Of a DNA stretch of 64,000 nucleotides, positions 3,384 to 49,300 are shown piece after piece. Under the pieces are notes generated by a model. That model made no database searches. It saw only the letters and a program-made list of their open reading frames with translations, and was not told where the DNA came from. The DNA is taken from the NCBI GenBank assembly GCA_032622095.1, contig CP136065.1:215926151-215990150 (forward strand). The letters are read 5' to 3'. The stretch comes from Siphonodentalium dalli. Taxonomy: Eukaryota > Mollusca > Scaphopoda > Gadilida > Siphonodentaliidae. Made by a program: the position numbers and the translations under genes. The first letter of the stretch is position 1. Each line of letters opens with the position of its first letter.

Positions 3384-5247
3384 TCCATTGCCAGACTTGT
3401 TCATATACGGATAAATGTGAATCATTATCGATATGTGAGAGTCTGGTGATCACATACATTATCTGGTGGTTGGTAGCTAACAGCACCTTAAGTTTTAAGT
3501 TCTACATCTAAACCTCACTATTATGTTTCTTTTTACCTCAAGAATGCTTCCGTCCCACGTTTATAATACCTCCGTTTACAAGTCATTAATTCTTAATGAC
3601 AGTCCTTCAGCCAATGAAACAGATGTTAAATAACTGGGAATTTGAAGTTTGAGCATTCATCGAATAAAGCTAACACTTTCTCGGGTTGAAAAATGTCATA
3701 ACACATCTAAAAATAAAGAGAGGAATCTTGTGAAATATAGTTTCCTGGGGATGTCCCTATCATCCCTACATATATGAGCTAAGGTATTTGAGCCATAGGA
3801 TCGGAATCATGAAGATTTCAGTTTATGACCTCTTTGACTAAGAATCTCTCAAATGATTTACATGACACAGGAAATAGAACCGATGTTACTGATATTTTAT
3901 TCATTATGTTAATTTATTGATGTCATAGTTTGCATACACAGTGACACAATTAATCAAGTCAAAAGATGCAATTAGGGTTCCAAACCCCCATTTACAAAAA
4001 CAACAACAAACAAAAATTATTTTAACCATTTCTTCTGCTTTTTGTTCTATTGAATATTATTGAAAACAAAATATGACATTTAAACTGTACCTATAAATAC
4101 CAAAGAAAATCATTTTGTTAATGAAAATAAACAAAATAATTTTTGGTGTTCCTCTTTAACATGGAAATTGTATGAAATATATTCATAGAAAATTCAATAT
4201 CAAACAAAATGTGTATTTTTTTTTTTAAACGTGTTCTTTTATAAAAAGTAACATAGGTTTTGTAAAAATTAGCCTGGAACCCTGAATACAACTTTAAGTG
4301 TGCCTTCTTGCATTTTACACATACCTCATTCATAATATATATATGTACATGTATATATAATGGATGAACATAAATTGTTTCATTAAATGATTATCCTTTC
4401 AGCATACCGTATAAATGGCATTTTGTATGATGTCATAAATAAAACATACACAGATATCTCTAAATATCATTTATGCCACTTGTAAAATTGCTATTTAATA
4501 TTTCATTTTCTAAGTCATGAAATATATTAGCAATCTGACATGCATAGGACCTATTCAGAATTAGTATCTCATTATATACATAACTCCAGCCAAATTCTAA
4601 AATAACTCGGCTGTTCTGACTACATTGTAAGCTAGGATTCTGGGAATCTATTCTTTTCAATGCAATTTGGTTTCTTTCATCTGATTTGATTTGAAATCGA
4701 CTGTCCTGATTCGGATGGTATCAATTCATGGGCAACAGTTGCATTCTCATTACTTCAACAGACCATTTTTTTTTTTTTTGCGAAGATATATTATGATACC
4801 AATGAAAGACCACACATACAAAAATCATTATCGTCGAATAAGCTGTGCTATAGAAGCATGTTGAGACTGATGTAACTGACCTAGCAAAATTTCATATATA
4901 TGTCAAACTTGAGCTGCGTGAATGCGTTTGCTTACTGACTTCATTATTGCTTCTGATGTTTCATTATTGTATAGCAGAGATGGCTGCAAATAATGTGCGC
5001 TTAATTGGTTAAAATATGCATTTGATCCATTTATAGATAATATTTACATTATATACTGATGATCACTTAGCATCGTTATGCAGTGAGCAAATTAATACCG
5101 GTATGGCCACTCTGTCAAGTGATATCTACACCTTCACTATTGATATGTCTGATGAATTATTCGATTCGGAATCATTTGGTTGACTCGATTCAAGATACGA
5201 TACAATTCAGAATCATTTGGTTGAATCGATTTGAGATATGTGATTTG
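3384..5247. other. Intergenic, no gene seen
   Basis: AT-rich unique sequence with no coding signature or recognised repeat. Confidence 0.6.
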
Positions 5248-5501
5248 CAAGCCTTGAAATAGTGTACCTGTCATTTGCAGAATGAGGTCCCCAGAGGGTG
5301 AATTTAGTGATGCTATCCCGCATAGCGGGCTAGCATCACCAAATTCACCCTCTGGGAACCTCATTCTGCTGAGGTGTAAGCAGAATGAGGTCCCCAGAGG
5401 GTGAATTTGGTGATGCTAGCCCGCTATGCGGGATAGCATCACTAAATTCACCCTCTGGGGACCTCATTCTGCAAATGACAGACACACTATTTCAAGGCTT
5501 G
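5248..5501. mobile_element. Family A foldback MITE, doubled palindrome
   Basis: Two nearly identical hairpins of about 115 bp (GATGCTATCCCGCATAGCGG and inverse) meet at CTGAGGTGTAAGCAG. Family A termini at both ends. Confidence 0.85.
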
Positions 5502-8150: not shown

Positions 8151-8540
8151 TTAACCCTTTACCCAACAGAAGGGCCCTGTGCCAATGCATTCTCTTATAT
8201 ATGCGAGTCGACCATAGGTCGCCTCGCATATATAAGAGAATGCATTGGCTTAACACGTTAAAAATTATTAAATTGTTAAAGAATGCAAGAAAAAAAGGTA
8301 AAAAGTGTTTTAAAAAGATTTTGTTTAGGCCAATGCATTCTCTTATATATGCGAGGCGACCTATGGTCGACTCGCATATATAAGAGAATGCATTGGCACA
8401 TGGCATAACTGTAACTATCACAATGTGGTCAAGGAGCCGGTTCCAATGATATCCATATTTGTATGGTTCTATTGAGACAGACCGAAGATATTTTAGGCTG
8501 TTGAAGCTTTATTTGGCCGGTTTGTTGGGTAAAGGGTTAA
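8151..8540. mobile_element. piggyBac-like MITE, family P1
   Basis: TTAA-flanked, with inverted ends CCCTTTACCCAACA / TGTTGGGTAAAGGG. It contains two perfect hairpins in opposite orientation (8180-8247 and 8328-8397). TTAA target duplication with CCCTTT ends is the piggyBac pattern. No coding capacity. Confidence 0.85.
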
Positions 8541-17335: not shown

Positions 17336-17714
17336 ATTCAGGTGATGATTTTGATATTTTATATCTGACAATCCACTCCAATTCCATTAATACTTGACGG
17401 TAAACAGCACCACAGGGTGTCCCAGTTCTATCGCTGTCACATTCCAACTTGCATGAAAAAATTAGGTAGATATCAGGTAGCTAAACATCTGAAAGACAGA
17501 GCTAAAGCATGCACATCATCACAGAATTGTATATACATGTATCCCACAATAATTACTTGGCTTAACATTTTCTTTACTAAATACTCATTGACGAGTTGTA
17601 CCCTTTGGAAAAGTTCAGATAATAAGGGAGTTTGTTATCCCTGGAAAACAAAGTTTGGCAGGGAATATATAAATGGGCTCCATTTGGATTTTAATGATTT
17701 TCGGTATGTTGATG

Positions 17715-17777
17715 GGGCGGGGGGTGGGGGGGGGGGGGGGGGGGGGGGGGGGGGTGGGGGGGGGGTGGGGGGGGGAG
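17715..17777 (+). repeat. G-rich simple repeat
   Basis: About 60 bases of G broken by a few T; it encodes a false poly-glycine. Could form a quadruplex. The length is likely unreliable in assembly. Confidence 0.9.
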
Positions 17778-19167: not shown

Positions 19168-19362
19168 CTAGGATGATGAGAAAAAGAAATTAAGCGCTCG
19201 ATTTATGTCGTAGTCAGCAGCAACTGCAACTCTAATTAGTTCTCCTTCAGGGACGTCACTGCCGACGATGTCTCGTAGCATCGATAAGCACGCATCTAAT
19301 CTTGAGTTATCCTCAGCAAGGGCAAGGTCATCTGATGAACTCGATGTGGAACCAGCAAGATT
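19168..19362 (-). CDS. BTB gene exon 22 (stop), HBS1-N/UBA-like domain
   Basis: Residues 814-877 and the TAG stop. LDACLSMLRDIVGSDVPEGE and VAVAADYDINRALNFFF follow the pattern of the HBS1 N-terminal domain (CLDHMREVLG...P...VL..FDVQKAL). No clear AATAAA was found just downstream. Confidence 0.9.
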   Translation of the reverse strand, partial: NLAGSTSSSSDDLALAEDNSRLDACLSMLRDIVGSDVPEGELIRVAVAADYDINRALNFFFSSS

Positions 19363-22300
19363 CTGAAATAGAAATCTCATGTCAGACTAAGTACAGTAAT
19401 GCTCTAATTAATCGACCTCTTAACCACAGCAGAATTATGGGTAACTTTTCAGGATTTAGTCGGAAATATGGCTTGTTGCCATTCATCGGAAAGCTCTCGG
19501 CGAGCAAGCCATATTTCCGACTAAATCCTGAAAAGTTACCCATAATTCTGCTGTGGTTAAGAGGTCGATTAATTATAGCATTACTGTAGGAATGGTTAAA
19601 CCTTCCATGACTGGAGCTTCCTCACACATATAAGAGAATACATTGGCCTAACAATATTTTCCTTGACCTTGTAAGCCAGTGCATTCTCGTATATATGCGA
19701 GGATCCCTGTGTGAGACTCGCATATATATGAGAATGCGCAGGCACATGATCTTTAATGCTGCACCAGCGCAGCTCCCGTCATGAAAGAGTTAAACATAAT
19801 TTATTTTCCAACACAATTAATTCATTACATGTGAGTTTACGAATGTTATATATAGATGTATGCAAAAAAAGTAAATGAATTTCACTCTTACATTTGCATA
19901 TAATTATGTATATATCTAAAAATTTATATAAGATTTATGGAAGCACAGACTCAGTAGATATAGAAGTGTGAGCCTTTTATAGTCGTTCCTGTAGCAAGCA
20001 AAGCCCACAAAATATATGTGTTCACTAATTATAAATCTTGTATTATTACAGTAGTCAGTGGGTGAGACATTAGGTATAGTTTGTTAGTTGGATGGAAATA
20101 AAACTATGTTTAGCGTACAGAACAGAAAAAGAAGAAAAACAGTGGTTGTGTGCATTTGGGAAGAGCGCCACAAACCCTCCAATGATCCCATGTCTAACGA
20201 GTAGCGGGGTAGCATCACCAAATTCACCCTCTGGGGACCTCATTCTGCTGAGGTGTAAGCAGAATGAGGTCCCCAGAGGGTGAATTTGGTGATGCTAGCC
20301 TGCTATGCGGTGTAGCATCACTAAATTCACCCTCTGGGGACCTCATTCTGCAAATGACAGACACACTATTTCAAGGCTTGGACTTCTCTCTCTTTGATAA
20401 CTCTAGGATGGTCCCATTCTGAGTCAAACACAGACTATTGAACTCAAGCCTAGATATAGTGTGCCTGGCATTTTCAGAATGAGGTCCCCAGAGGGTGAAT
20501 TTAGTGATGCCACCCCACACAGTGGACTAGCATCACTAAATTCACCCTCCAGGGACCTCATTCTGCTTAGGCCTCATCTTCTGGGAAGTATCTATAGTCT
20601 CAAATTAACATTGTTTTAGTTACCTTTTCCCTTCTGTTCAGTTTCTATATCGCTTAATTTGCAGAAGATAAAATGCATCATCAAGGTGAACATCACCAAC
20701 TTCAACTAATAAACTTCAATCTGATCCTAGTTTTCCCAGCCAAAGCAGAATGAGGTCCCCAGAGGGTGAATTTGGTTATGCTAGCCTGCTGTGCAGGGTA
20801 GCATTACTAAATTCACCCTCTGGGGACCTCATTCTGCAAATGTCAGACACATTATATCCAGGCTTGTCCAGTTGTTTCTCTGGATGAAGAGTGCACAGCA
20901 AATTTTGGTCAGAGATATTCCGAGTTAACTATGTTTTGATTTTCTCCTCCATAGGAGCTTACATTATTAATATCTATACTCACAATTCTGGCCATTCCAA
21001 GGTTACACTCTAATTCATCAACTTCACTTAGACTAGAACCAGAACTGGAAGACACTCGACGTTTGCCTTTCCGACTTCTCGTCCTGAAATAAAAAATTTA
21101 GTAACTAAACAGTGATTTTGAATTAGGCGCATTTGAAACCCACAAATAAATAAGAAACTCACAAATATTATGATAGGAGTTTTAAAGCTCTGGTCAACAT
21201 GTTTGACACTTCATCTGATTTTAGATTTTGTAATAGTTTAACATGTAACAATGGTTCATACATGCCACAGATATTTTATTTGACTAACGGCAGCCATGTT
21301 GGATGCCATCTTGGATCCTGAATTTTGCCCAAAGCCCATTTTAGCCGATTTTGGATATGTTATACACGAGATTCTCCCACGTCGAATGACACCAAAACCG
21401 CTTCTTTACCAATTTCTTCTGGGTCTAACTCTATTTGTAATAGTTTAACATGTAACAATGGTTCATACATGCCACAGATATTCATTTAATTTCTATTCAA
21501 TACTAAGTAACACTTATCAGACTTTGCAAACACTGCAACTGGTAAATTTATGTGTGCTTAATTGCAATATAAACATAATTGAAAAAAATAACTATTTCAG
21601 TTGATGAATTCATGAGGAATTAACCACAATTTCTGGTAATATGCTTCACAATCAGCAAAGCTGGTTAATATCCAGTTATGAATAAGTGCTGAGTGAACTT
21701 CCGATAGCACGTGTCAATTATTAATAAATCATTTCGAAGTAAGAGTTATGAAAATCAATTGGATGTAATTAGTTAACCCTTACATGATTGGAGCTTCCTG
21801 AAATATTTCAAAAACCTTGTGCCAATGCATTCTCTTATATATGTGAGTCTCCCATAGGGAGCCTCGCATATATAAGAGTATACATTGGCCTAACAATATT
21901 TACCTTGCCCTTGTAAGCCAGTGCATATATGTATGAGAATGCATTGGCACAAGATCTTTAATGATGCACCAGCGCAGCTCCCATCATCGGGGTTTATCAC
22001 AACGGGGCAGATTTTTACACACATTATTTACCTATGCCATGATATAGCATCTTCTGCTTCCATTACTTACCTGTGCCATGATATAGCATCTTCTGCTTCC
22101 ATTACTTACCTGTGCCATGATATAACATCTTCTGCTTCGATTATTTACCTGTGCCATGATATAGCATCTTCTGCTTCGATTATTTACCTGTGCCATGATA
22201 TAGCATCTTCTGCTTTATTATTTACCTGTGCCATGATATAGCATCTTCTGCTTCCATTACTTACCTGTGCCATGATATAGCATCTTCTGCTTCCACTTGT

Positions 22301-25300
22301 AGATTTTTACACACATTATTTACCTGTGCGATGATATAACATCTTCTGCTTCCACTTGTAGATTTTTACACACATTATTTACCTGTGCCATGATATAACA
22401 TCTTCTGCTTCCATTATTTACCTGTGCCATGATATAACATCTTCTGCTTCCATTATTTACCTGTGCGATGATATAACATCTTCTGCTTCCACTTGTAGAT
22501 TTTTACACACATTATTTACCTGTGCGATGATATAACATCTTCTGCTTCCACTTGTAGATTTTTACACACATTATTTACCTGTGCCATGATATAGCATCTT
22601 CTGCTTCCACTTGTAGATTTTTACACACATTATTTACCTGTGCCATGATATAACATCTTCTGCTTCCATTATTTACCTGTGCGATGATATAACATCTTCT
22701 GCTTCCACTTGTAGATTTTTACACACATTATTTACCTGTGCCATGATATAGCATCTTCTGCTTCCACTTGTAAGTGCTCTGGTAAATCTGCAAACAACTC
22801 CTGATCGGCAACACCAGGGTGCTCAATCATGTATGCGAGCACATAGTCCTGAAATTAGATCAAAACCTGAGCTGTTAAACAGCAAACTAATAATCATATC
22901 ATGTGAAACATCATAACTACTTCATTGATATAGCAGTAGCACTGCTAAATTGTTTTATATCCCATGGTTTCAGGATTTTTTTTATCCAGGTTCGCTAAAC
23001 CTGGCACAATTTTTTTTCCCAGCGTCGAACAAGAACATCAATGAAAGTGTCAATGACACTGTAGCTCAACTTGGAAAGGGAATAATTTCATGTGTACAGT
23101 CAATGGAGTGATTAGGAATGTGGAAAGTTGAAAGGTCTAGTTATGCAAAGAGTAAAATCCAAGATGGCCACTGGCAGCCATGGTTTTTGCCGAATGAGCC
23201 CAAAATGACTCGTTCCCATTTACATGTCAATGTTAACTTCCACGACAAATTTCATGATGATCAGACCAACAGTATGGCCTGAAATCCAAGATGGCTGCTG
23301 GCGGCCATGTTTTTTTTCCGAATGACTCCAAAATGACTCGTTCCCATCTACATGTCAATGTTAACAGCCATGACAAATTTGATAAAGATATGACCAAAGG
23401 TACGACCTGTAGCCTGTGCCAAAATATTTAGTCATGCAAAGAGTAAAATCCAAAATGGCTGCTGGCGGCCATGTTTTTTGGCCGAATGACTCCAAAATGA
23501 CTCGTTCCCATCTACATGTCAATGTTAACAGCCATGACAAATTTGATAAAGATATGACCAAAGGTACGACCTGTAGCCTGTGCCAAAATATTTAGTCATG
23601 CAAAGAGTAAAATCCAAAATGGCTGCTGGCGGCCATGTTTTTTGGCCGAATGACCCCAAATGACTCGTTCCCATCTACATGTCAATATTAACATCCACGA
23701 TAAATTTCATGATGATCAGACAAACAGTATGGCCTGTAGCCCATGCTAATGGATTAAATTTTGAAATCCAAGACGGCCACTGGCATTCCCATCTACATCC
23801 CATTGTCAACATCTGTGACAAATTTCATGATGATCCGAATAAAGGTACGACCTGTAGCCCGTGCCAAAGGATTAGTCATGCAAAGAGTAAACTCCAAGAT
23901 GGCTGCTGGCGGCCATGTTTTTTGGCCGTATGACCCCATTATTACCCGTTCCCATCTGCAAGTCATTGTTAACATCCATGACAAATTTCGTGATGATCAG
24001 ACAAACAGTACGACCTGTAGCCCGTGCCAATTTTATTGAATTTTTAAATCCAAAATGCGGCGGCCATATTTTTTTTCCGAATGACCCCCAAATGACTCGT
24101 TCCCATCTACATGTCAATGTCAACAGCAATGACAAATTTTATAATGATCCGACCAAATGTACGACCTGTAGCCCATGCTAAAGGAAATTGTTGACGAATC
24201 ACACATGCACACACACATACCAAGCCATGGTAATAGCTCAAACTTCACAAAATAAAGTTAAGCTAATAAATATCTGTCAATTTCAATGCAACAATTGTCT
24301 CAAAATTCATTAACCAAACGACAATTTTGAAATCACATGAACTAAACAAGATTTCCCAACCTGGGTAAAAAATGCCAGTTTCAGCAAACATGGGTAAAAA
24401 CATTCCTGGTTTGTGTACCAATTCAACAGTAGTACTAGTCGCACTGGCATGAAACACCTGTTATAATGTTGATTTCAATTTGTGTGATTGTGGAACCACA
24501 GGAAATTAATTGTTGTTAATTAGATTCTAGTAGCAACATCCAGCATGATATTAATCAAGTTGTTGGTTTATTTCAAATTACATAGGAAACAGACGAAAAT
24601 GTTTAGGAAGAATTCAAACAAAAGGCCAATAACTCTGCCCAATACTTCCCAATATGAACTTAGTCTGTACTTGAAACCAAATAAACTTAATTTCTCTTAT
24701 TCAATATTTGGTCCATCACTTGGGCAAAAGATCATCACTATTTAAATTTCATATATCAGTATTTTTTGTCATCTCGCCACTTATCATGAAATTTTAATAT
24801 TTCTTTCCAGACACTCATGAGATATAGACAGTACACAACGCGCATCTTAATCGAGACTCTTTTATCGAATGAGTTGCGGATGGCGCAAATATAACTTTGC
24901 GCCATCCACAACGAGTTCGATAAAAGATTTGAGATTATGATGCAAGTTGTGTTCTGTATTTATTCTACACCGTTCAGTCAGATAAGTTCAATCCATGAAT
25001 GTCACCTTCATTGTTACTATAGCTACCTTTATTGTGATTTAAGTCTGACAAATAACCAGTAATTATGGGGGGTTCACCGGAAGCGGATGATCGACATAAT
25101 GTACGTCATCTTTCTTGGCGACAACGTCAACAAGAATAGTTCCAGCTTGTATTCCACTAGAGGTATACACTAATATGTATTCAATGGCTGGGATTCCGTT
25201 GAATACATGTGACTCACGTCAATGGGTGTGGAATAAATTTTGGTATTCAAACCAAAACTGTAGGTATTCTCATTTAATCGTATTCGTTTACCTTCAGTGT

Positions 25301-28300
25301 CTTGGAATTCAGTTGATCAGCCAGTGACAGCATATATAAAGCGTTTTCGTCATCACAGTGATGCTTCAGGGCCAGCTCACATAGGCTCTTCAGACCATCA
25401 ACCTACAAGATAAATGAAGTAATACAAGCTCAAACAGTACTACAGGGTTGAAAAAGGGGAATAACTCAACTGAAAAAGTCAGATGGACCTCATCATTGCA
25501 GATGCAATTCTAGCATACAACCCCCCCCCCCCCCCCCAATAACATTGGTATAATAAATGTCTGTCTTGTTAGGCAATTATACCTCCCCAGAGACAGCAGG
25601 AAGTACAGCAACATTTAGAGACCAGCATAAAATGAGAAAATCAAGCCTGTATTACATGGACAAGAGGATGTAGCTCCAGTGATAATGAATTTAACCCTTT
25701 CAGTGCCAAGTCCGATTTTTGTATCAACCCATATTTCCTCGATCATTTTTCAAATTTATTGATTATAATAATGTGATACATTGATGGAAAGAGCTCTTAG
25801 AAGTCAAGTCCGATTTTTGTATCAACCCATATTTCCTTGATAATTTTTCTAAGAGCTCTTTCCATCAATGTATCACATTATTATAATCAATAAATGATCA
25901 AGGAAATATGGATTGATACAAAAATCAGACTTGGCACTGAAAGGGTTAACAGAACCCAAAGTCACACTTTTCCTGCATCTAATGGAAGTCAACCCACAAA
26001 CAATATTTCATCAGGAACTGATAATCTATTTTTGGCAGTCTGTATGGTGTTGGTCACCTACTGTTTCAACTTGAATTGGAATAGGACACGTGAAACCAGA
26101 AAAATTGTTACCAAACAAATCTGTGTTGAGTTATAGTGTAATGTCATGTATTTCACATGCGGTATGCAGGATGAAATTGGCTGCACCTCATGAAGAGTCG
26201 GAATTTATCTGAACTTTTGGGAAAGGGACCTGGGCTTTTTCGATTGGGAAATTGGCACCATATATGGAGGCTTAAAATGGGGAATTTCTATATTAAAGTA
26301 ACAGAGACAAAAGGAACAATCATTGTCAAAAATCAGTGTAATCAAAACAGTTTAACAGCGGGCTAGCATCACCAAATTCACCCTCTGTGGACCTTATTCT
26401 GCTTACACCTCAGCAGAATGAGGTTCTAAGAGGGTGAATTTGGTGATGCTAGCCCACTATGCAGGATAGCATCACTAAATTCCGCCTCTGGGGACCTCAT
26501 TCTGCAAATGACAGACACACTATCTCAAGGCTTGCTGGATCACAACCAAGTGATTTGTTGTTAATTGGGAATTTTGGGAGTCAGAAATTGGGGAAAAAAA
26601 CAGATTATTTCTCATTGGGAACAGCGCCCATTTTTGGCCCCTGTGTTACCCAAAAAATCCATCCGAGTGGTATCTATTAATAAGAAGTGAAAGTAGGCAA
26701 TTGTGATGTTACCTCATATCTGTCAGCGAGAGTCATGAGATCAGCCATCTGTTCCGTAGACAAGTCACCTGTGTCCATCTGCCCACAATACAGGTAATCC
26801 AACAGCATCCGAAACAACAAATGACTTGTGTCATGTACAGTTATTTTTCTGTGGGAAAATAATCAGTATAATTATCATGACTGCATATTGTCAGGAATAC
26901 AGTAATGCCCTAATTAATCGACTTCTCAACCACAGGAGAATTATGGGTAACTTTTCAGGATTTAGTCGGAAATATGGCTTGTTGCCATTCATCAGAAATC
27001 TCTCACTGAGAGCTTTCCGATGAATGGCAACAAGCCATATTTCCGATTAAATCCTGAAAAGTTACCCATAATTCTCCTGTGGTTAATAAGTTGATTAATT
27101 AGGGCATTACTGTAATGATCACTTCCATGACTGGAGCTTCCTAAAATTTTGCGAAAACCCTGTTCCAATGCATTCTCTTATGTATGCAAATCTCCCTCGC
27201 ATATATAAGAGAATACATTGGCCAAACAATATTTACCCTGTCCTTGTAAGCCAGGGTATTTTCTTACTTATTACATGATCCGACCCTTATTCCATTCATT
27301 AAACCCATTCTACAATAATAATATATATGCAATGTTCATTGCATAACAGGAAATAGTTCCCAGTGTACCCAAATGTATATGAATCGATGTGTGACTGATA
27401 TAGATATAGTATTTCATTAAATTTAGGCGATTAAATATGTCAACGAGACCTATTTATCTAGAGACTATTTCCTTATGCAAACAAACAATGCATAGTTATG
27501 TGAAACATCATCGCTCGCCTTATAGAATCAGCCACTGTTTGTTTCACTACCCATTTTATTGATTTAAGTATGTTTTACGGAAATTTTGAATAGAGTAATA
27601 AATAGAATCTACAACTCGTCCCCAGTATAAAAAGGCTCGGTCCAGACTTAATTTACTGGATTTGTAGATCTTCCATACTGGTCTAATGATTCTCTCATAC
27701 CACTAAGATGAGCTCTGCGGTACGAGTCACATTGGGCTGATTTATTACATAGATGGTTTAGATGCTTATAAGTGTCACTTTCTTGTCTTTTGATTCTCTC
27801 ATACCATTAAGAAGAGCTCTGCGGTACCAGTCACATTGGGCTGATTTATTACATAGATGGTTCAGATGGTCTGCGGTACCAGTCACATTGGGCTGATTTT
27901 GTGACAGTGGTCTGAGATGCTTATAAATGCCTCTTACTAGTCTGTTGATACTCTCATACCTCTGAGGTCTTTACAGACCAGTCACATTGGGCTGATTTTA
28001 TCAGAGAGCAGGCTGGTATGCATACATACTAATCTGATTTACTTCTCTATTGAGTCACATTGGGCTGATTTATTGCATAGACCGTCCAGATGCTTATAAA
28101 AGCCACTTACTTGTCTATTGATTCTCTCATACCGCTGAGAAGCGCTCTGCGGAACCAGTCACAACGGGAAGCTATTATCACACAGTGGCCTGGAATACAG
28201 TGCACTTCTTCGTCCCTTTCGGGAGTAGAATGACTACACACCTCTCCATTTGAATGGTCTATCACCTCATCTCCAGAGTTATCTGTATATTATAACAGAA

Positions 28301-31300: not shown

Positions 31301-34300
31301 TGTTGATGTTCACCCATTAGTCACCTCGATAATGCAATTTATCTTCTGCAAATTAAGGGATATAGAAACTGATCAGAAGGGAAAAAGTAACTGGAAACAA
31401 TGTTAATTTAAGACTATAGATACTTCCCAGAAGATGAGGCCAAAGCAGAATGAGGTCCCCAGATGGTGAATTTAGTGAAGTTAGCCCACTGTGCAGGGTA
31501 GCATCACTAAATTCACCCTTTGGGAACCTCATTCTGCAAATGACAGACCCACTATTTCAAGGCTTGTGAAAGATTTAAAGTGATGTGAAACACTCCGGTT
31601 GGGTGAACACATAGAAATGGAGAATAATCTTGCTCAAAGTAGTTATTTTTACGAATATTAATCCAAATTTCCAGCACACACACCGTCATTCTTATATTTT
31701 AATTAAATACAATGACTCTCGATGGCGAAATCATTTACTTTAGTTTATCGCCGATTGTTGCATCCCGAATCGAGATGTAAATATTTACAATTATGCGTAA
31801 TTCAGACGATGATATCTATGGAATAGTATGGACGATTTCTTTGAGATTTTCGGCGATGTTAGTAGAATGCTACATTCCCACAGTTGGCATAGCGCCAGAG
31901 TACTAACTTGTCAGTTTCACGCACCCGAACAAGTACATAATATGTCTTTAACCCTTTACCCAACAAACCGGCCAAATAAAGCTTCAACAGCCTAAAATAT
32001 CTTCGGTCTGTCTCAATAGAACCATACAAATATGGATATCATTGGAACCGGCTCCTTGACCACATTGTGATAGTTATAGTTATGCCCTGTGCCAATGCAT
32101 TCTCTTATATATGCGAGTCGACCATAGGTCGCCTCGCATATATAAGAGAATGCATTGGCCTAAAAAAAATCTTTTTTTAACACTTTTTACCATTTTTTCT
32201 TACATTCTTTAACAATTTTATAATTTTTAATGTGTTACGCCAATGCATTCTCTTATATATGCGAGGCGACCTATGGTCGACTCGCATATATAAGAGAATG
32301 CATTGGCACAGGGCCGTTCTGTTGGGTAAATGGTTAATGATTATGAAACAAAGTTTTCATCGTGAACACAAAAAGTAGTCAGCCACATGCATAGATATTT
32401 ACCCTGGCATATTTAGTTAAGTTGTTCCTCGACGCAAATGGGTCTGGGCAAGCGATGTTAGATAGACCCAGAGCTTCCGCAGCACTCGAGAAGCTATCTC
32501 TGTGGACCATATCACAGCTTGATTTCACAAGAGATTCTATCGTGTGTCGGTTCGTCTGTGCTTTGTTTAATATCCATGACTGAAATAGAATGGGAAAATT
32601 CTATAAATATTCAAATCTATTAGGGAGGATGAACAGACTTCACAGTCTACCACCTAGGAACCATTCTAATTAAATTCTTGCTCTATTATTGTGGTGATCT
32701 TGTCACAGTTTTATATTATGTTGCCAATTGACAAGTTTTATGCTAAGCTTTTTCTAGGATGGATTTTTAATAGCATATATTGTAGATCATTTTATAAACT
32801 TAAATTCCTTCTTGGTATTCATTACTGTGGGCAACATCTGTGAGACAGTTCAATCATCTTGGTTGAAAATTTGTCTTGTGACAAATGTAAGACTTTTTTT
32901 GAGAACTAGTGTTTATGTGACAGTGCAGAAAACTCCACCGAACTATAGTGTATCAACTGATATGAAACTGAATCCCAGACCCAGTGCAAATGACAGGCAC
33001 ACTGAACTCAGGCTTGATTGTACAATGTACATTATTGTTGCATATGTTTCCTAGCTCCAGGTGGACTGAAAATAGCCCTCAAGTCAAATTTAGGCCTTTG
33101 AAATCCACCTTAAGATTTCCCGGAATCAAACTTACCACTTTAGCTGTTCCTAATTTAAACAGATATTTCCAGTCCTTCCACGTGAGTTTCTCATCAAGAT
33201 CCAGCATGAACTCCTCCAATTTCTTCAGAGTAATTGGAAGCTGACGAGAAAGAGAAACATGATATTTAAAGAAAAGCCAATAGGGTGCCTCACATATATA
33301 AGAGAATGCATTGGCCTAACAATATTTACCTTGATCTTGTAAGCCAGTGCAGTCTCTTTTATTTACATACACCTAATATAGCTTCCGATTACCCCGTTAC
33401 AATAGACACGCCCCCTGAGTCAATGTGTTCATAAACCTATAAATGCTATGTGATATCATTATCAATGTCGTTCAAAGGTTTATAAACACAGTGTTTGATG
33501 TAAATGATCCATAGACTGCTTGAGTATTCAGAATGTCTGGATTTGGCAAGAAATTTGTTTTGGTCTAATATAAGTTTTGTTACCCTTCACCAAACACCCA
33601 TCTCCTCTGATTAGACATCACACAGTCCACATCTCGACAATTGTTACCATGACATTGATGACAAGTACAACGTATGGAGATCTCTTACCATCCGCTCACC
33701 GCTATGTTATAGTTTAACTCTGTTTATAACCTCATAACTTTCGACATATCGCGTACAATGTTGTTTGCTCATTTGCATAATTATCGTTTTCAATTCGCAA
33801 TTGAAATGCGTTGTGCGTATATAGTGCTGCGACCGACGTAAATTTGTTTTATGGTGTAGGTTTCCTATTGGGGTCTTCTTATATGAGTACAGTGGACCAC
33901 ATTGTTGCACAATAGCATTATAATGCAGCTAATACTGAAATACTGCAGACAAATTAATCTAACTGCTACTCACCATATCGACTTAGTGTTTTGATATTAA
34001 TCAAACTGCTACTCACCATATCGACTGAGTGTTTCATGTGCTTCGATATGTATCTAACTCTCTGTTGCTGGGTGTTCTGTAAAAATTTGTCTCTATAGGA
34101 AGAATGAGAAATAAATTTATAGGTACATGCCATATTTGAACTAACACTGAAATTTGAGAGTAACAAGCTGTCAATAATTGATACAATTTACATCAAACTA
34201 TACTGCCATATGCAATCATCAGAAGCTGATACAACAACTGCACATAGCAAATCCCCATAAAGGTGGCTCTTCACCAAGTTGTATTAATTTTCTCAGATGG

Positions 34301-43300: not shown

Positions 43301-46300
43301 GAAATGATGTATGTACTTACCTCTCTCCCTGAATCTGCAGTGATGGTAACATCGGAGAAATATCCTTCTTCCAGTGCATTGAGGAATGAGAATGGAATAT
43401 CTTGCTTCGGATCACATGACGCTACCTGAAACAAGAGCATATTCATTGTTCCAAATGTAGACTTGAACAAAGGCCCATCTGAAGTGATGGTACAAAGACA
43501 GAGTTCAAAATCAAACTCAGCCTTAGTTTTCAACAAATGGCCATAACTCTGGTGAAAATTGGAGAGTGGAACCCAAATTTGAGCATGATCTGTACTTTGT
43601 GCTGGTAAACCCACATGCCAAATTTCATTTCATTCAGCTGAGCTAACTAAAGTTATCATCCGGAAACTAAAATATGGACAGACTCATAACATAATACGTC
43701 CTGATTTTTTAAAACAGGCATACAAAAATGTTCACAATAATACTTAACCCTTTGAAATCGACTGGCCGCAAAAGTGGCCAGCCAGAAAACGTTCATACAC
43801 CTGACTGGCTGCTTTTGCTGTCAATAGCATTCGGTGACGTCATAAACATATGTAGCATGTTTATATGTGTTACAACCATTGGTATATCCACTTATATCTA
43901 TGTAAATGATTCCCAGGAACTTCAGCAGTGCTATGGGTGCATTTGTATGGGTTTGTTGCCGACCAGTTGGGGTTGGAAAATATGCGCATAGCGCCGAATT
44001 CAACAAACGTACATTATTTGAAGCGATTCGCGTAACGCTATACATTGTTGAGCGGTTTGCAGGATTGTAGAAAGACACAATTTCGATCAATCTTATGGGT
44101 TTAAATTATTCTTGTATACATAATAAGAGTTCTGGCATATGCGAGGAAGGCGCAGTCACTTATTTGAGTCGATTTGTTCGCGCATGCGCTTAAGATACAA
44201 TGATAAATGTATGGGTTTTCACAATCACACCAAGGATCCCCACAACACATGAGTTTGCATCATACAGTTACCCGGTACTTGTTTTGACATTGCATCAGAG
44301 TAGTCCTGTGGAAAAGGGTTGCATGGTCACAATATCATCTAGTGCGATCTACTTGCGCGTGCGCATTACAAACATGTGTCAAATCTTGCTTATTGAGCAA
44401 TTCTATAAGTTTAAGACCTGTGGCACCATTTGAGCATGACCATCACCATGTCCCTATGCGATGTATAAAATGGGACATAATACCATTGTATGCACAGGGA
44501 AATGGTATCATTCGATCACTTGGGGTATATGCTTAGGCTTAGCAACCATTGATACCGTTAAATACAAGTTGGGTTCACTCTTCTGAGTTCTGACCAGATA
44601 TATCTAAAATTTCACAACATGAAATTGACTGCATAGAAAACTCAGTTTTTAGCGCTGAATTACGACGCTATAAGCTATAATTGCATATTACTTCCAATTC
44701 CGGGTAGTTGCATAGAAACCGTTACCAGGGAGTGATCGTGTGGCAAAGTTTACCAATCTTAAAAATACTCTGTGGTCCACTGGAACATAACTGTAAAGTT
44801 TGTGACCTGTGGCACCATTTGAACATAACCATCACCATGTGCATGCCATGGAATGTCTAAATTGGGGCATAATACAACTAAATACACAGGGCAATGATGT
44901 CATTCTACCATTTGGGGTATTTGCTTAGCAACCGTTGCTACCCTTAGATACAAGTTAGGTTCACTCTTCTGGTCAGATATATCTCAAATTTCACAATAGG
45001 GTATTGACTGCCTCAAAAATGCCACTTCCTTGGGCTGAATTATGACGATAAAGCTATAATTGTATTTTACTTTCCATATGGGGTAGTTGCCTAGCAACCA
45101 TTACCAGGGAGTGACCATGTGGCAATGTGACCAGATCTTAAAATAATCAGTAGTCCATGGGGAACATGCCTCTAAAGTTTCAGACATGTGGCACCACTTG
45201 AACATAAACAACACTGTACGCCTAAAAACTGCATACTATAAGTCAAAATACCACTGGGAGTCCAGGGTCAGGGTGTCGATCGTTGTGGGGAGCCAGGGTT
45301 CAAAGGGTTAAGATGTGACAGGCAAGATGGTTAATCCCATTTTGAAATACTACTGGAACGTGCTAAACTTAACCTTCTACGAAGAAAAAATATGTAGGAT
45401 TCAAGCTACAGTTAGCGTTCCAGTATGGTAGCAGGATCAACCATTTCACCTTGTAGTTATGTCCTAGGCACAGCTGAGATATCCAGGACTGCATATATAC
45501 GCAACATTGTCACTTCACTAATGTTGGCTTCTACACTTAACTGGTTTGATTTTAGTCAAATAAACCATTAATAAAGTCTTACATTTATAATTTAAACTAC
45601 ATGATATGTTAAACATGGTATTGTCATATATGCTGAAAGCAATGTAAAACAATTAATCGAAATTGTTGGAATTTTAGCTACATATATTCTAGATAGGGAG
45701 GGTAATAACAAAGCCAGAACAAACAACATGCTGGATTAAATAAGGAATAACGCTTTTAAGAATGCTTAGAGAAATTGGTTAATTTGGCATTTGAAAACCT
45801 TTAAAAGCTGCCTCATTTACACTATATTCACCCTCATTATTTCTAATAACGAGTTTAAAGGGGTACTGTACACTAAATCCGACCATTTATGGGACCATCT
45901 CCTTTTATCCTCAACAGAATATATGCAACAAAAGAATGAATATGAGCAATGGATTAGTGTAAAATACACTCATGTGCTGTATGATTGATACAAACAACAT
46001 GGTAATTATAATGATGAAAGTGTCAATGACACTGTAGCTCAACTTAGGTAAGGGAATAATTTAATGGTTGACAGTAAATGGAGGAATAGGAAAGGTGCTA
46101 ATTGAAATGTCTAACCTACATGTATGATGTAGCTGTGCCAAAGGATTTAGTCATGCAAAGAGTAAATCCAAGATGGCTGCTGGTGGCCATGTTTTTTGGC
46201 TGAATGACCTCAAAATGACTCGTTCCCATCTACATGTCATTGTTAACATCCATGACAAATTTCATGAAGATCCGACTAAAGCTACTACCTGCAGCCCGAG

Positions 46301-49300
46301 CCAAAGGATTTAGTCATGTAAAGAGTCAAATCCAAGATGGCTGCTGGCGGCCATGTTTTTTGGCCGAACGACCACAAAATGACTCGTTCCCATCTACATT
46401 TCAATATTAACATCCATGACAAATTTCATGATTATCAGTCGAATAGTACGACCTGTAGCCCGCACCAATGGATTTAATTTTTAAATCCAAGATGGCCTCC
46501 AGCAGCCATGTTTTTTGGCTGAATAACCTCAAAAGGACTTGTTCCCATCTACATGTCATTGTTAACATCCATGACAAATTTCATGAAGATCCAACTAAAG
46601 GTACGACCTGAGCCCGCGCCAAAGGATTTAGTCATGTAAAGAGTAAAATCCAAGATAGCTGCTGGCGGCCATGTTTTTTGGCCGAACGACCCCAAAATCA
46701 CTCGTTCCCATCTACATGTCATTGTTAACATCCATGACAAATTTCATGAAGTTCTGACCAAAGCTACAACCTGTAGCCCGCGCCAAAGAATTTAGTCATG
46801 CAAAGAGTAAAATCCAAGATGGCTGCTGGCGGCCATGTTTTTTGGCTGAACGACCCCAAAATCACTCGTTCCCATCTACATGTCAATATTAACATCCATG
46901 ACAAATTTGATGATGATCAGACGAACAGCACGACCTGTAGCCCGAGCCAATGGATTGAATTTTGAAATCCAAAATGGCCACCAGCGGCCATGTTTTTTGG
47001 CCGAATGACCCCAAAATGACTCGTTCCATCTACATGTCAATGTCAACATTCATGACAAAATTCATAAAGATCAGACCATAGGTACGACCTGTAGCCCGCG
47101 CCAAAGGATTTAGTCATGCAAAGAGTAAAATACATGATGGCTGCCATGTTTTTTGGCCAAACAACTCCAAAATCACTCGTTCCCATCTACATGTCATTGT
47201 TAACATCCATGACAAATTTCATGAAGTTCTGATAAAAACTACGACCTGTAGCCTGTGCCAAAGGATTTAGTCATGCAAAGAGTAAAATCCAAGATGGCTG
47301 CCAGCGGCCATGTTTTTTGGCCGTATGACCCCAAAATGACTCGTTCCCATATACATGTCAATATCAATATTCATGACAAATTTCATAAAGGTCAGACCAA
47401 AGGTACGACCTGTAACCCGCGCCAAAGGATTTAGTCATGCAAAGAGTAAAATCCAAGATGGCTGCTGGCGGCCATGTTTTTTGGCCGAACGACCCCAAAA
47501 TCACTCGTTCCCATCTACATGTCATTGTTAACATCCATGACAAATTTCATGAAGTTCTGACCAAAGCTACATGTAGCCCGCGCCAAAGAATTTAGTCATG
47601 CAAAGAGTAAAATCCAAGATGGCTGCTGGTGGCCATGTTTTTTGGCTGAATGACCCCAAAATCACTCGTTCCCATCTACATGTCAATATTAACATCCATG
47701 ACAAATTTAATGATGATCAGATGAAGAGCACGACCTGTAGCCCGCGCCAATGGATTGAATTTTGAAATCCAAAATGGCCACCAGCGGCCATGTTTTTTGG
47801 CCGAATGACCCCAAAATGACTCGTTCCCATCTACATGTCAATGTCAACATTCATGACAAAATTCATAAAGATCAGACCATAGGTACAACCTGTAGCCCGC
47901 GCCAAAGGATTTAGTCATGCAAAGAGTAAATCCATGATGGCTGCTGGCGGCCATGTTTTTTGGCCGAACAACCCCAAAATCACTCGTTCCCATCCACATG
48001 TCATTGTTAACATCCATGACAAATTTCATGAAGTTCTGATCAAAACTACGACCTGTAGCCTGCGCCAAAGGATATAGTCATGCAAAGAGTAAAATCCAAG
48101 ATGGCTGCCAGCGGCCATGTTTTTTGGCCGAACGACCCCAAAATGACTCGTTCCCATCTACATGTCAATATTAACATCCATGACAAATTTCGTAATGATC
48201 AGACGAACAGTACGACCTGTAGCCCGCGCCAATGGATTGAATTTTGAAATCCAAAATGGCCACCAGCGGCCATGTTTTTTGGCCGAATGACCCCAAAATG
48301 ACTCGTTCCCATCTACATGTCAATGTCAACATTCATGACAAATTTTATGATGATCGGACTAAAGGTACAACCTGTAGCCCGCGCCAAAGGATTTAGTCAT
48401 GCAAAGAGTAAAATCCAAGATGGCTGCTGGCGGCCATGTTTTTTGGCCGAACAACCCCAAAATCACTCGTTCCCATCTACATGTCATTGTTAACATCCAT
48501 GACAAATTTCATGAAGTTCCGATCAAAACTACGACCTGTAGCCTGCGCCAAATGATTTAGTCATGCAAAGAGTAAAATCCAAGATGGCTGCTGACGGCCA
48601 TGTTTTTTGGCCAAACGACCCCAAAATGACTCGTTCCCATCTACATGTCAATATTAACATCCATGACAAATTTCATGATGATCAAACGAACAGTACGACC
48701 TGTAGCCCGCGCCAATGGATTGAATTTTGAAATCCAAGATGGCCACCAGCGGCCATGTTTTTTGGCCGAATGACCCCAAAATGACTCGTTCCATCTACAT
48801 GTCAATGTCAACATTCATGCAAAATTTCATAAAGATCAGACCAAAGGTACGACCTGTAGCCCGCGCCAAAGGAAATTGTTGACGGACACACGCACACACG
48901 GACGACGGACGCCAAGCCATGGCAATAGCTCAAACTTACAAAAGTAAGTTGAGCTAAAAATGAATAAATGGCTGGAGTCATAAATTAATTTTCATTATAA
49001 TTACCATGTTGTTTGCATCATTCATAGAGCACAAGAGTGTATTTTACACTAATCCATGTCTCAAATTCATTCATTTGTTGCATATATTCTGTTAAGTATA
49101 AAAGGAGATGGTCCCACAAATGGCCGAATTTAGTTTACAGTACCCCTTTACGTCTCATGTCAACTTCAATTACATAGATCAGGAATTTCAAAAATTGGAA
49201 CAAACCTTCTGACACTGTAGCATACAACATCTGTCATAGGTAAGTAACATCAAATCATCAGAAATCTCTACCTGTTAACAAGGAAAACAAGTTAGTGTGA

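Follow-up and report, generated by a model that had tools for sequence, protein, structure and literature searches.

Analysis of a 64,000-nt stretch of the Siphonodentalium dalli genome (assembly GCA_032622095.1, contig CP136065.1, positions 215,926,151 to 215,990,150; hereafter the window) revealed that the end of an exon of a BTB-domain gene on the minus strand, together with the 5' splice site (donor) that follows it, is repeated 15 further times in the adjoining intron. The array is very probably a young, neutral minisatellite of the mirage type described in amphioxus, which started by chance across an exon-intron border and for which no adaptive role is detectable. A 35-base pattern built from the copies matched the minus strand 16 times, at 22023-22761, with no other match in the window and none across 100 dinucleotide shuffles. 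These matches correspond to the true exon end (last exonic base 22736) and to 15 further copies, the same number that a sequence-only reading of the window had previously reported. That reading had also located the array, but its limits were slightly off: the duplicated matter extends from 22712 to 22009 and the source unit from 22771 to 22713.

The source unit comprises 59 nt, made up of the last 36 exonic and the first 23 intronic nucleotides. The AG|GT sites of the copies lie at 22677, 22638, 22579, 22520, 22461, 22422, 22383, 22324, 22265, 22226, 22188, 22149, 22110, 22071 and 22032, with spacings, from the exon outward, of 59, 39, 59, 59, 59, 39, 39, 59, 59, 39, 38, 39, 39, 39 and 39 nt, the 39-nt unit being the 59-nt unit minus 20 nt. 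The donors of the copies are intact, as previously claimed for most of them, with AG|GTAA present in 16 of 16 and the donor 9-mer reading CAG|GTAAAT in 12, CAG|GTAAGT in three and TAG|GTAAAT in one. Duplicated matter accounts for 704 nt of the 1652-nt intron, and the final copy passes into unique intron sequence. The unit spans the exon-intron boundary and its lengths (59, 39 and 38 nt) fit the minisatellite range of the amphioxus cases (10-160 bp); the mixed order of 59- and 39-nt units, together with a higher period of 196 nt, suggests past exchange. A search of the S. dalli genome (2.2 Gb, nine contigs) with a 140-base query returned at least six matches, every one inside this array; the search scores best candidates only, so that its counts are lower bounds and do not prove uniqueness. 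With matches at this locus only, subject to that bound, an origin from a dispersed repeat or transposon was rejected, as was a coding or antisense reading of the array, since no frame is open throughout on either strand.

The host gene (19168-54837, minus strand) belongs to an uncharacterised family of proteins that combine a BTB domain and a UBA-like C-terminal region, members of which occur in molluscs, nemerteans, an annelid, a priapulid, arthropods, hemichordates and echinoderms. Sixteen exons were joined first, nine of which share a single open frame running from 33240 to the stop codon of the final exon, and tblastn with five orthologs placed more 5' exons, including one at approximately 34092-34017. 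In total, open frames and ortholog homology allowed 22 exons to be placed, with unrefined boundaries for the first few, and the exon carrying the array is the 20th, the rank it had been given from sequence alone. Homology searches yielded 47 proteins from 7993 scored candidates, mostly uncharacterised, the best of which (Haliotis) is 55% identical. On a tree of 27 rows (26 picked from the 47 hits plus the window protein), the window protein groups with 14 mollusc proteins (support 99/99) and falls outside nine gastropods (98/99), with the order within the mollusc group left open. In Pfam, a single BTB domain passes its cut-off; the UBA-like C-terminus does not, its best match, UBA_RAD5A, falling short as well. 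The C-terminal domain had been described as HBS1-like, a weak name, since HBS1_N reaches 17.4 bits where its cut-off is 26.4.

The position of the array relative to the reading frame determines what each donor could produce. Use of donor 22736 completes the split codon AG|G with the following exon and keeps the reading open as far as the UBA-like end, matching the orthologs. The frame at the border reads CAC AG|G TAA, and each of the 15 distal donors would retain G TAA and thus meet a stop at 22734-22732, directly after the first donor, which bears out the earlier proposal that distal donor use meets an in-frame TAA. No donor other than 22736 preserves the frame into the two C-terminal exons present in orthologs, and since 22736 alone gives the conserved protein, the normal mRNA is presumably spliced there. 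A distal-donor product would lose the last 97 residues, including the UBA-like domain, and its exon would measure 172 to 817 nt by computation. It had been proposed that the array could buffer the loss of the real donor; because every distal product carries the same in-frame TAA, the array cannot compensate for loss of donor 22736. In mammals, a premature stop lying far enough upstream of an exon junction is expected to trigger nonsense-mediated decay. The first distal junction (22677) lies 55 nt past the stop and another junction 100 nt further on, so that decay of the distal products would be expected under the mammalian rule.

The copies themselves show no sign of constraint. Among 37 aligned columns in the 16 copies, four vary, two of nine within the donor 9-mer and two of 28 elsewhere; the donor columns thus vary no less than the others, giving no sign of purifying selection on the donors. 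In addition, the Trp codon of the exon is changed (TGG to TCG) in four of the 15 copies, whereas, among 18 orthologs aligned out of the 47 hits, 17 extend to the matching position (one ends earlier) and 14 of these have Trp there. The array copies are therefore free of coding constraint.

The host gene contains two further donor-spanning duplications. In the first, the exon that ends at 34017 (ATG|GTGAGT) has one extra 43-bp copy of its end and donor, in which the copied donor is intact; BLAST self-comparison did not recover this duplication, which is evident in other analyses. In the second, five further copies extend to 27676 behind the BTB exon, which ends at 28111. One of them is without the donor region and another has GA in place of GT; the remaining three show U1 pairing energies of -2.9 to -4.5 kcal/mol, weaker than the -6.7 kcal/mol of the parent donor. 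The weakening or loss of donors in this more diverged array speaks against selection keeping the copied donors. None of the 17 tested acceptors of the gene model lies inside any array detected by Tandem Repeats Finder.

Chance expectations for such overlaps were assessed on a sample of 20 loci of 10 kb each (200 kb) from the same genome, at hand-picked positions on nine contigs. In this sample, arrays with a period of at least 10 number 83 and occupy 11.2% of the sequence, and those of period 20-200 occupy 10.0%, with a median of 5.5% per locus and a range of 0 to 59%; the corresponding values for the window are 10.9% and 8.8%. Three of 33 donor-like motifs in the sample fall inside arrays. 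With arrays making up about 10% of the sampled genome, donor overlaps are to be expected, provided that arrays land on borders as freely as elsewhere. Of 13 arrays that Tandem Repeats Finder detected in the gene, two cover a donor, against a mean of 2.8 in 20,000 random placements (P = 0.88), for which the first few donor positions were taken approximately from tblastn ends, and two of the 10 arrays shorter than 800 bp do so, against 0.97 expected (P = 0.24). Enrichment of arrays at donors in this gene was not significant in these two counts nor in a third that included the diverged BTB array (P = 0.10).

Together, these results are consistent with a simple history, reconstructed from the anatomy of the array. 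One duplication would have copied 59 nt (36 exonic and 23 intronic), one copy would then have lost 20 nt to yield the 39-nt unit, and slippage or unequal exchange would have spread both unit forms to 16 copies. Splicing would proceed from the first donor, at 22736, with the whole array removed along with the intron, and an mRNA made by occasional splicing at a distal donor would contain the stop and be subject to the decay anticipated above.

Closely comparable arrays are known from amphioxus. There, the term mirage denotes a minisatellite-like tandem duplication across an exon-intron boundary in which many copies carry AG/GT (PMC3087553, PMC3902484), and such repeats have been reported in Adh3, in the globins BflGb6 and BflGb9 and in troponin C, with imperfect ones in PGBD5 (PMC3087553, PMC3902484). 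Mirage length differs between haplotypes, and reverse-transcription PCR (RT-PCR) suggests that regular splicing is undisturbed (PMC3087553). As in the array described here, it is the 3' border of an exon that is duplicated in BflGb9 (PMC3087553). The two systems differ in that the repeat units number six and three in two BflGb6 haplotypes, with a duplicate in BflGb9 (PMC3087553), against 15 extra copies here; that the acceptor side is copied in BflGb6 (PMC3087553), whereas three donors of one gene and no tested acceptor are involved here; and that the amphioxus hosts are lancelets, whereas the array, known from one assembly, lies in a gene whose protein is placed by the tree among molluscs. 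In our literature searches, the term mirage for such repeats was found for lancelet cases only, and no mollusc case appeared among the titles and abstract beginnings returned.

Several observations weigh against a neutral minisatellite. The use of donor 22736 is inferred rather than seen, and three distal donors (22265, 22110 and 22071) pair with U1 better than it does: the real donor and 11 copies reach -8.3 kcal/mol, the three GTAAGT copies -13.7 and the last copy -6.7, the mean over 15 gene-model donors being -7.2 kcal/mol. A local folding estimate, to which we give little weight, places the real donor lowest of the 16 in accessibility (0.005 versus 0.02-0.34), and concealment of the distal donors by RNA structure was accordingly rejected as an explanation. 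Where two 5' splice sites are comparable, preference is said to go to the intron-proximal one, by a mechanism stated in 2018 as not known (PMC6002489), which would predict distal use; combined with the stronger distal donors, this preference weighs against ready splicing at 22736. None of the 16 donors is broken, which the youth of the array explains but does not prove. Lastly, adding the diverged BTB array to the small arrays brings the count to three donor-covering arrays out of 11, where 1.26 would be expected, which hints weakly at an excess.

A regulatory alternative draws on these same observations. The sequence-only reading had proposed that the array could tune the output of the C-terminal domain, and such tuning is no more than possible. 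Under this proposal, a fraction of the transcripts would use distal donors, meet the stop at 22734-22732 and either decay or yield a protein without its last 97 residues, with copy number setting the output. The array offers 15 intact competing donors, three with stronger U1 pairing and all predicted to be more accessible than the real donor, each distal product meets an immediate in-frame stop, and a GA-rich exon sequence, a candidate enhancer, is repeated in every unit. The donors are, however, no more conserved than the remainder of the unit, and the longer of the distal exons depart from usual exon size. The preference for the intron-proximal site has been stated for comparable tandem donors (PMC6002489) and would favour distal use, whereas amphioxus mirages seem not to disturb splicing in RT-PCR (PMC3087553). 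On balance, we regard this alternative as unlikely.

A specific form of it, with U1 bound simultaneously to many of the 16 donors and the amount of full-length BTB-UBA protein governed by changes in copy number between animals, is if anything slightly less likely. The U1 footprint has been cited as 23 + 12 nt (PMC6002489), which the array spacings of 38-59 nt exceed; since even the 39-nt units just exceed this 35-nt footprint, U1 could occupy every copy. A related published arrangement is exon 1 of oestrogen receptor alpha, with two comparable donors 33 nt apart (PMC6002489); here there are 16, likewise comparable, and, unlike in that exon, the exon-proximal donor alone yields protein.

Inflation of the copy number by the assembler is very unlikely. 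The array is known from a single assembly, but that assembly is of chromosome scale (nine contigs of 190-301 Mb), the array measures only about 0.7 kb, its copies are partly distinguished by substitutions and by two unit lengths, and the flanks at its two ends are distinct. Least probable of all, by a small further step, is a reading in which the copies offer both 3' and 5' sites and segments are spliced stepwise or are becoming a new intron, as in the Rogers duplication model: any stretch from the first GT to a later AG would form a GT...AG segment whose removal restores the normal mRNA, but the AGs of the copies are weak acceptors (pyrimidine fraction 0.45-0.50 in 20 nt in 16 of 16, against 0.60-0.85 at the 17 gene-model acceptors), segments of 39 nt fall below workable intron length, and in the gene model the array lies within an existing intron, with no new intron position shown. 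Duplicated AGGT can create introns elsewhere (PMC4974935, PMC3443670), and intron gain in ATP2A1, in fission-yeast 24-bp arrays and in potato RdRp, where the duplication likewise crosses an exon-intron border, shares with this array a tandem duplication around AG|GT (PMC4974935). In contrast to those cases, the copies here lengthen an existing intron, with weak acceptors and without a new position.

The presence of three donor-spanning arrays in one gene, in a genome with about a tenth of its 200-kb sample in tandem arrays, suggests that such structures ordinarily arise as a by-product of minisatellite-rich genomes. They could be common raw material for splice variants, and the 16-site array constitutes a natural competition test of 5' splice-site choice with a single productive option.

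Table 1. Features of the array, its host gene and the other donor-spanning duplications (window coordinates)
Feature	Position	Strand	Evidence
Coding exon, number 20 among 22 placed; repeat derived from its last 36 nt	22736..22848	-	Acceptor TTTCAG before 22848, donor CAG|GTAAAT after 22736; frame continues into next exons; ortholog alignment
Source unit, 59 nt (36 exonic + 23 intronic)	22713..22771	-	
Fifteen further copies (59-nt units and 39/38-nt units without ~20 nt), all AG|GTAA	22009..22712	-	
Host intron, 1652 nt, of which 704 nt duplicated	21084..22735	-	
In-frame TAA read upon use of any distal donor	22732..22734	-	
Stretch with three distal GTAAGT donors (last exonic bases 22265, 22110, 22071)	22071..22265	-	U1 pairing stronger than real donor
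Next coding exon, 100 nt	20984..21083	-	
Last coding exon, UBA-like domain	19168..19362	-	
Second case: 43-bp repeat unit containing the exon end ...GATATG|GTGAGT; one additional copy	33953..34034	-	
Third case: BTB exon end and donor, five extra diverged or truncated copies	27676..28163	-	

Other repeats were observed in the window and in the sampled loci. A 164-bp tandem family (GCCAAAGGATTTAGTCATGCAAAG...) forms large arrays at 46137-48873 and 23155-24053 of the window, and apparently the same family is present in sampled loci L011 and L013 on other contigs; it may be a dispersed satellite or a transposon tandem. An element containing GCAGAATGAGGTCCCCAGAGGGTGAATTTAGTGA as well as its near-complement recurs at 5277-5472 of the window, at 8292-8487 of locus L008 and at 4014-4209 of locus L010; it may be a small DNA transposon. 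At 66-290, a 75-bp unit is repeated three times at 100% identity, which indicates a very recent tandem array, and positions 5858-10000 of L013 hold approximately 70 copies of a 59-bp unit, reaching the end of the sampled stretch. A mostly G run of 62 bases (86% match to a G run) lies on the plus strand of the window at 17714-17775.
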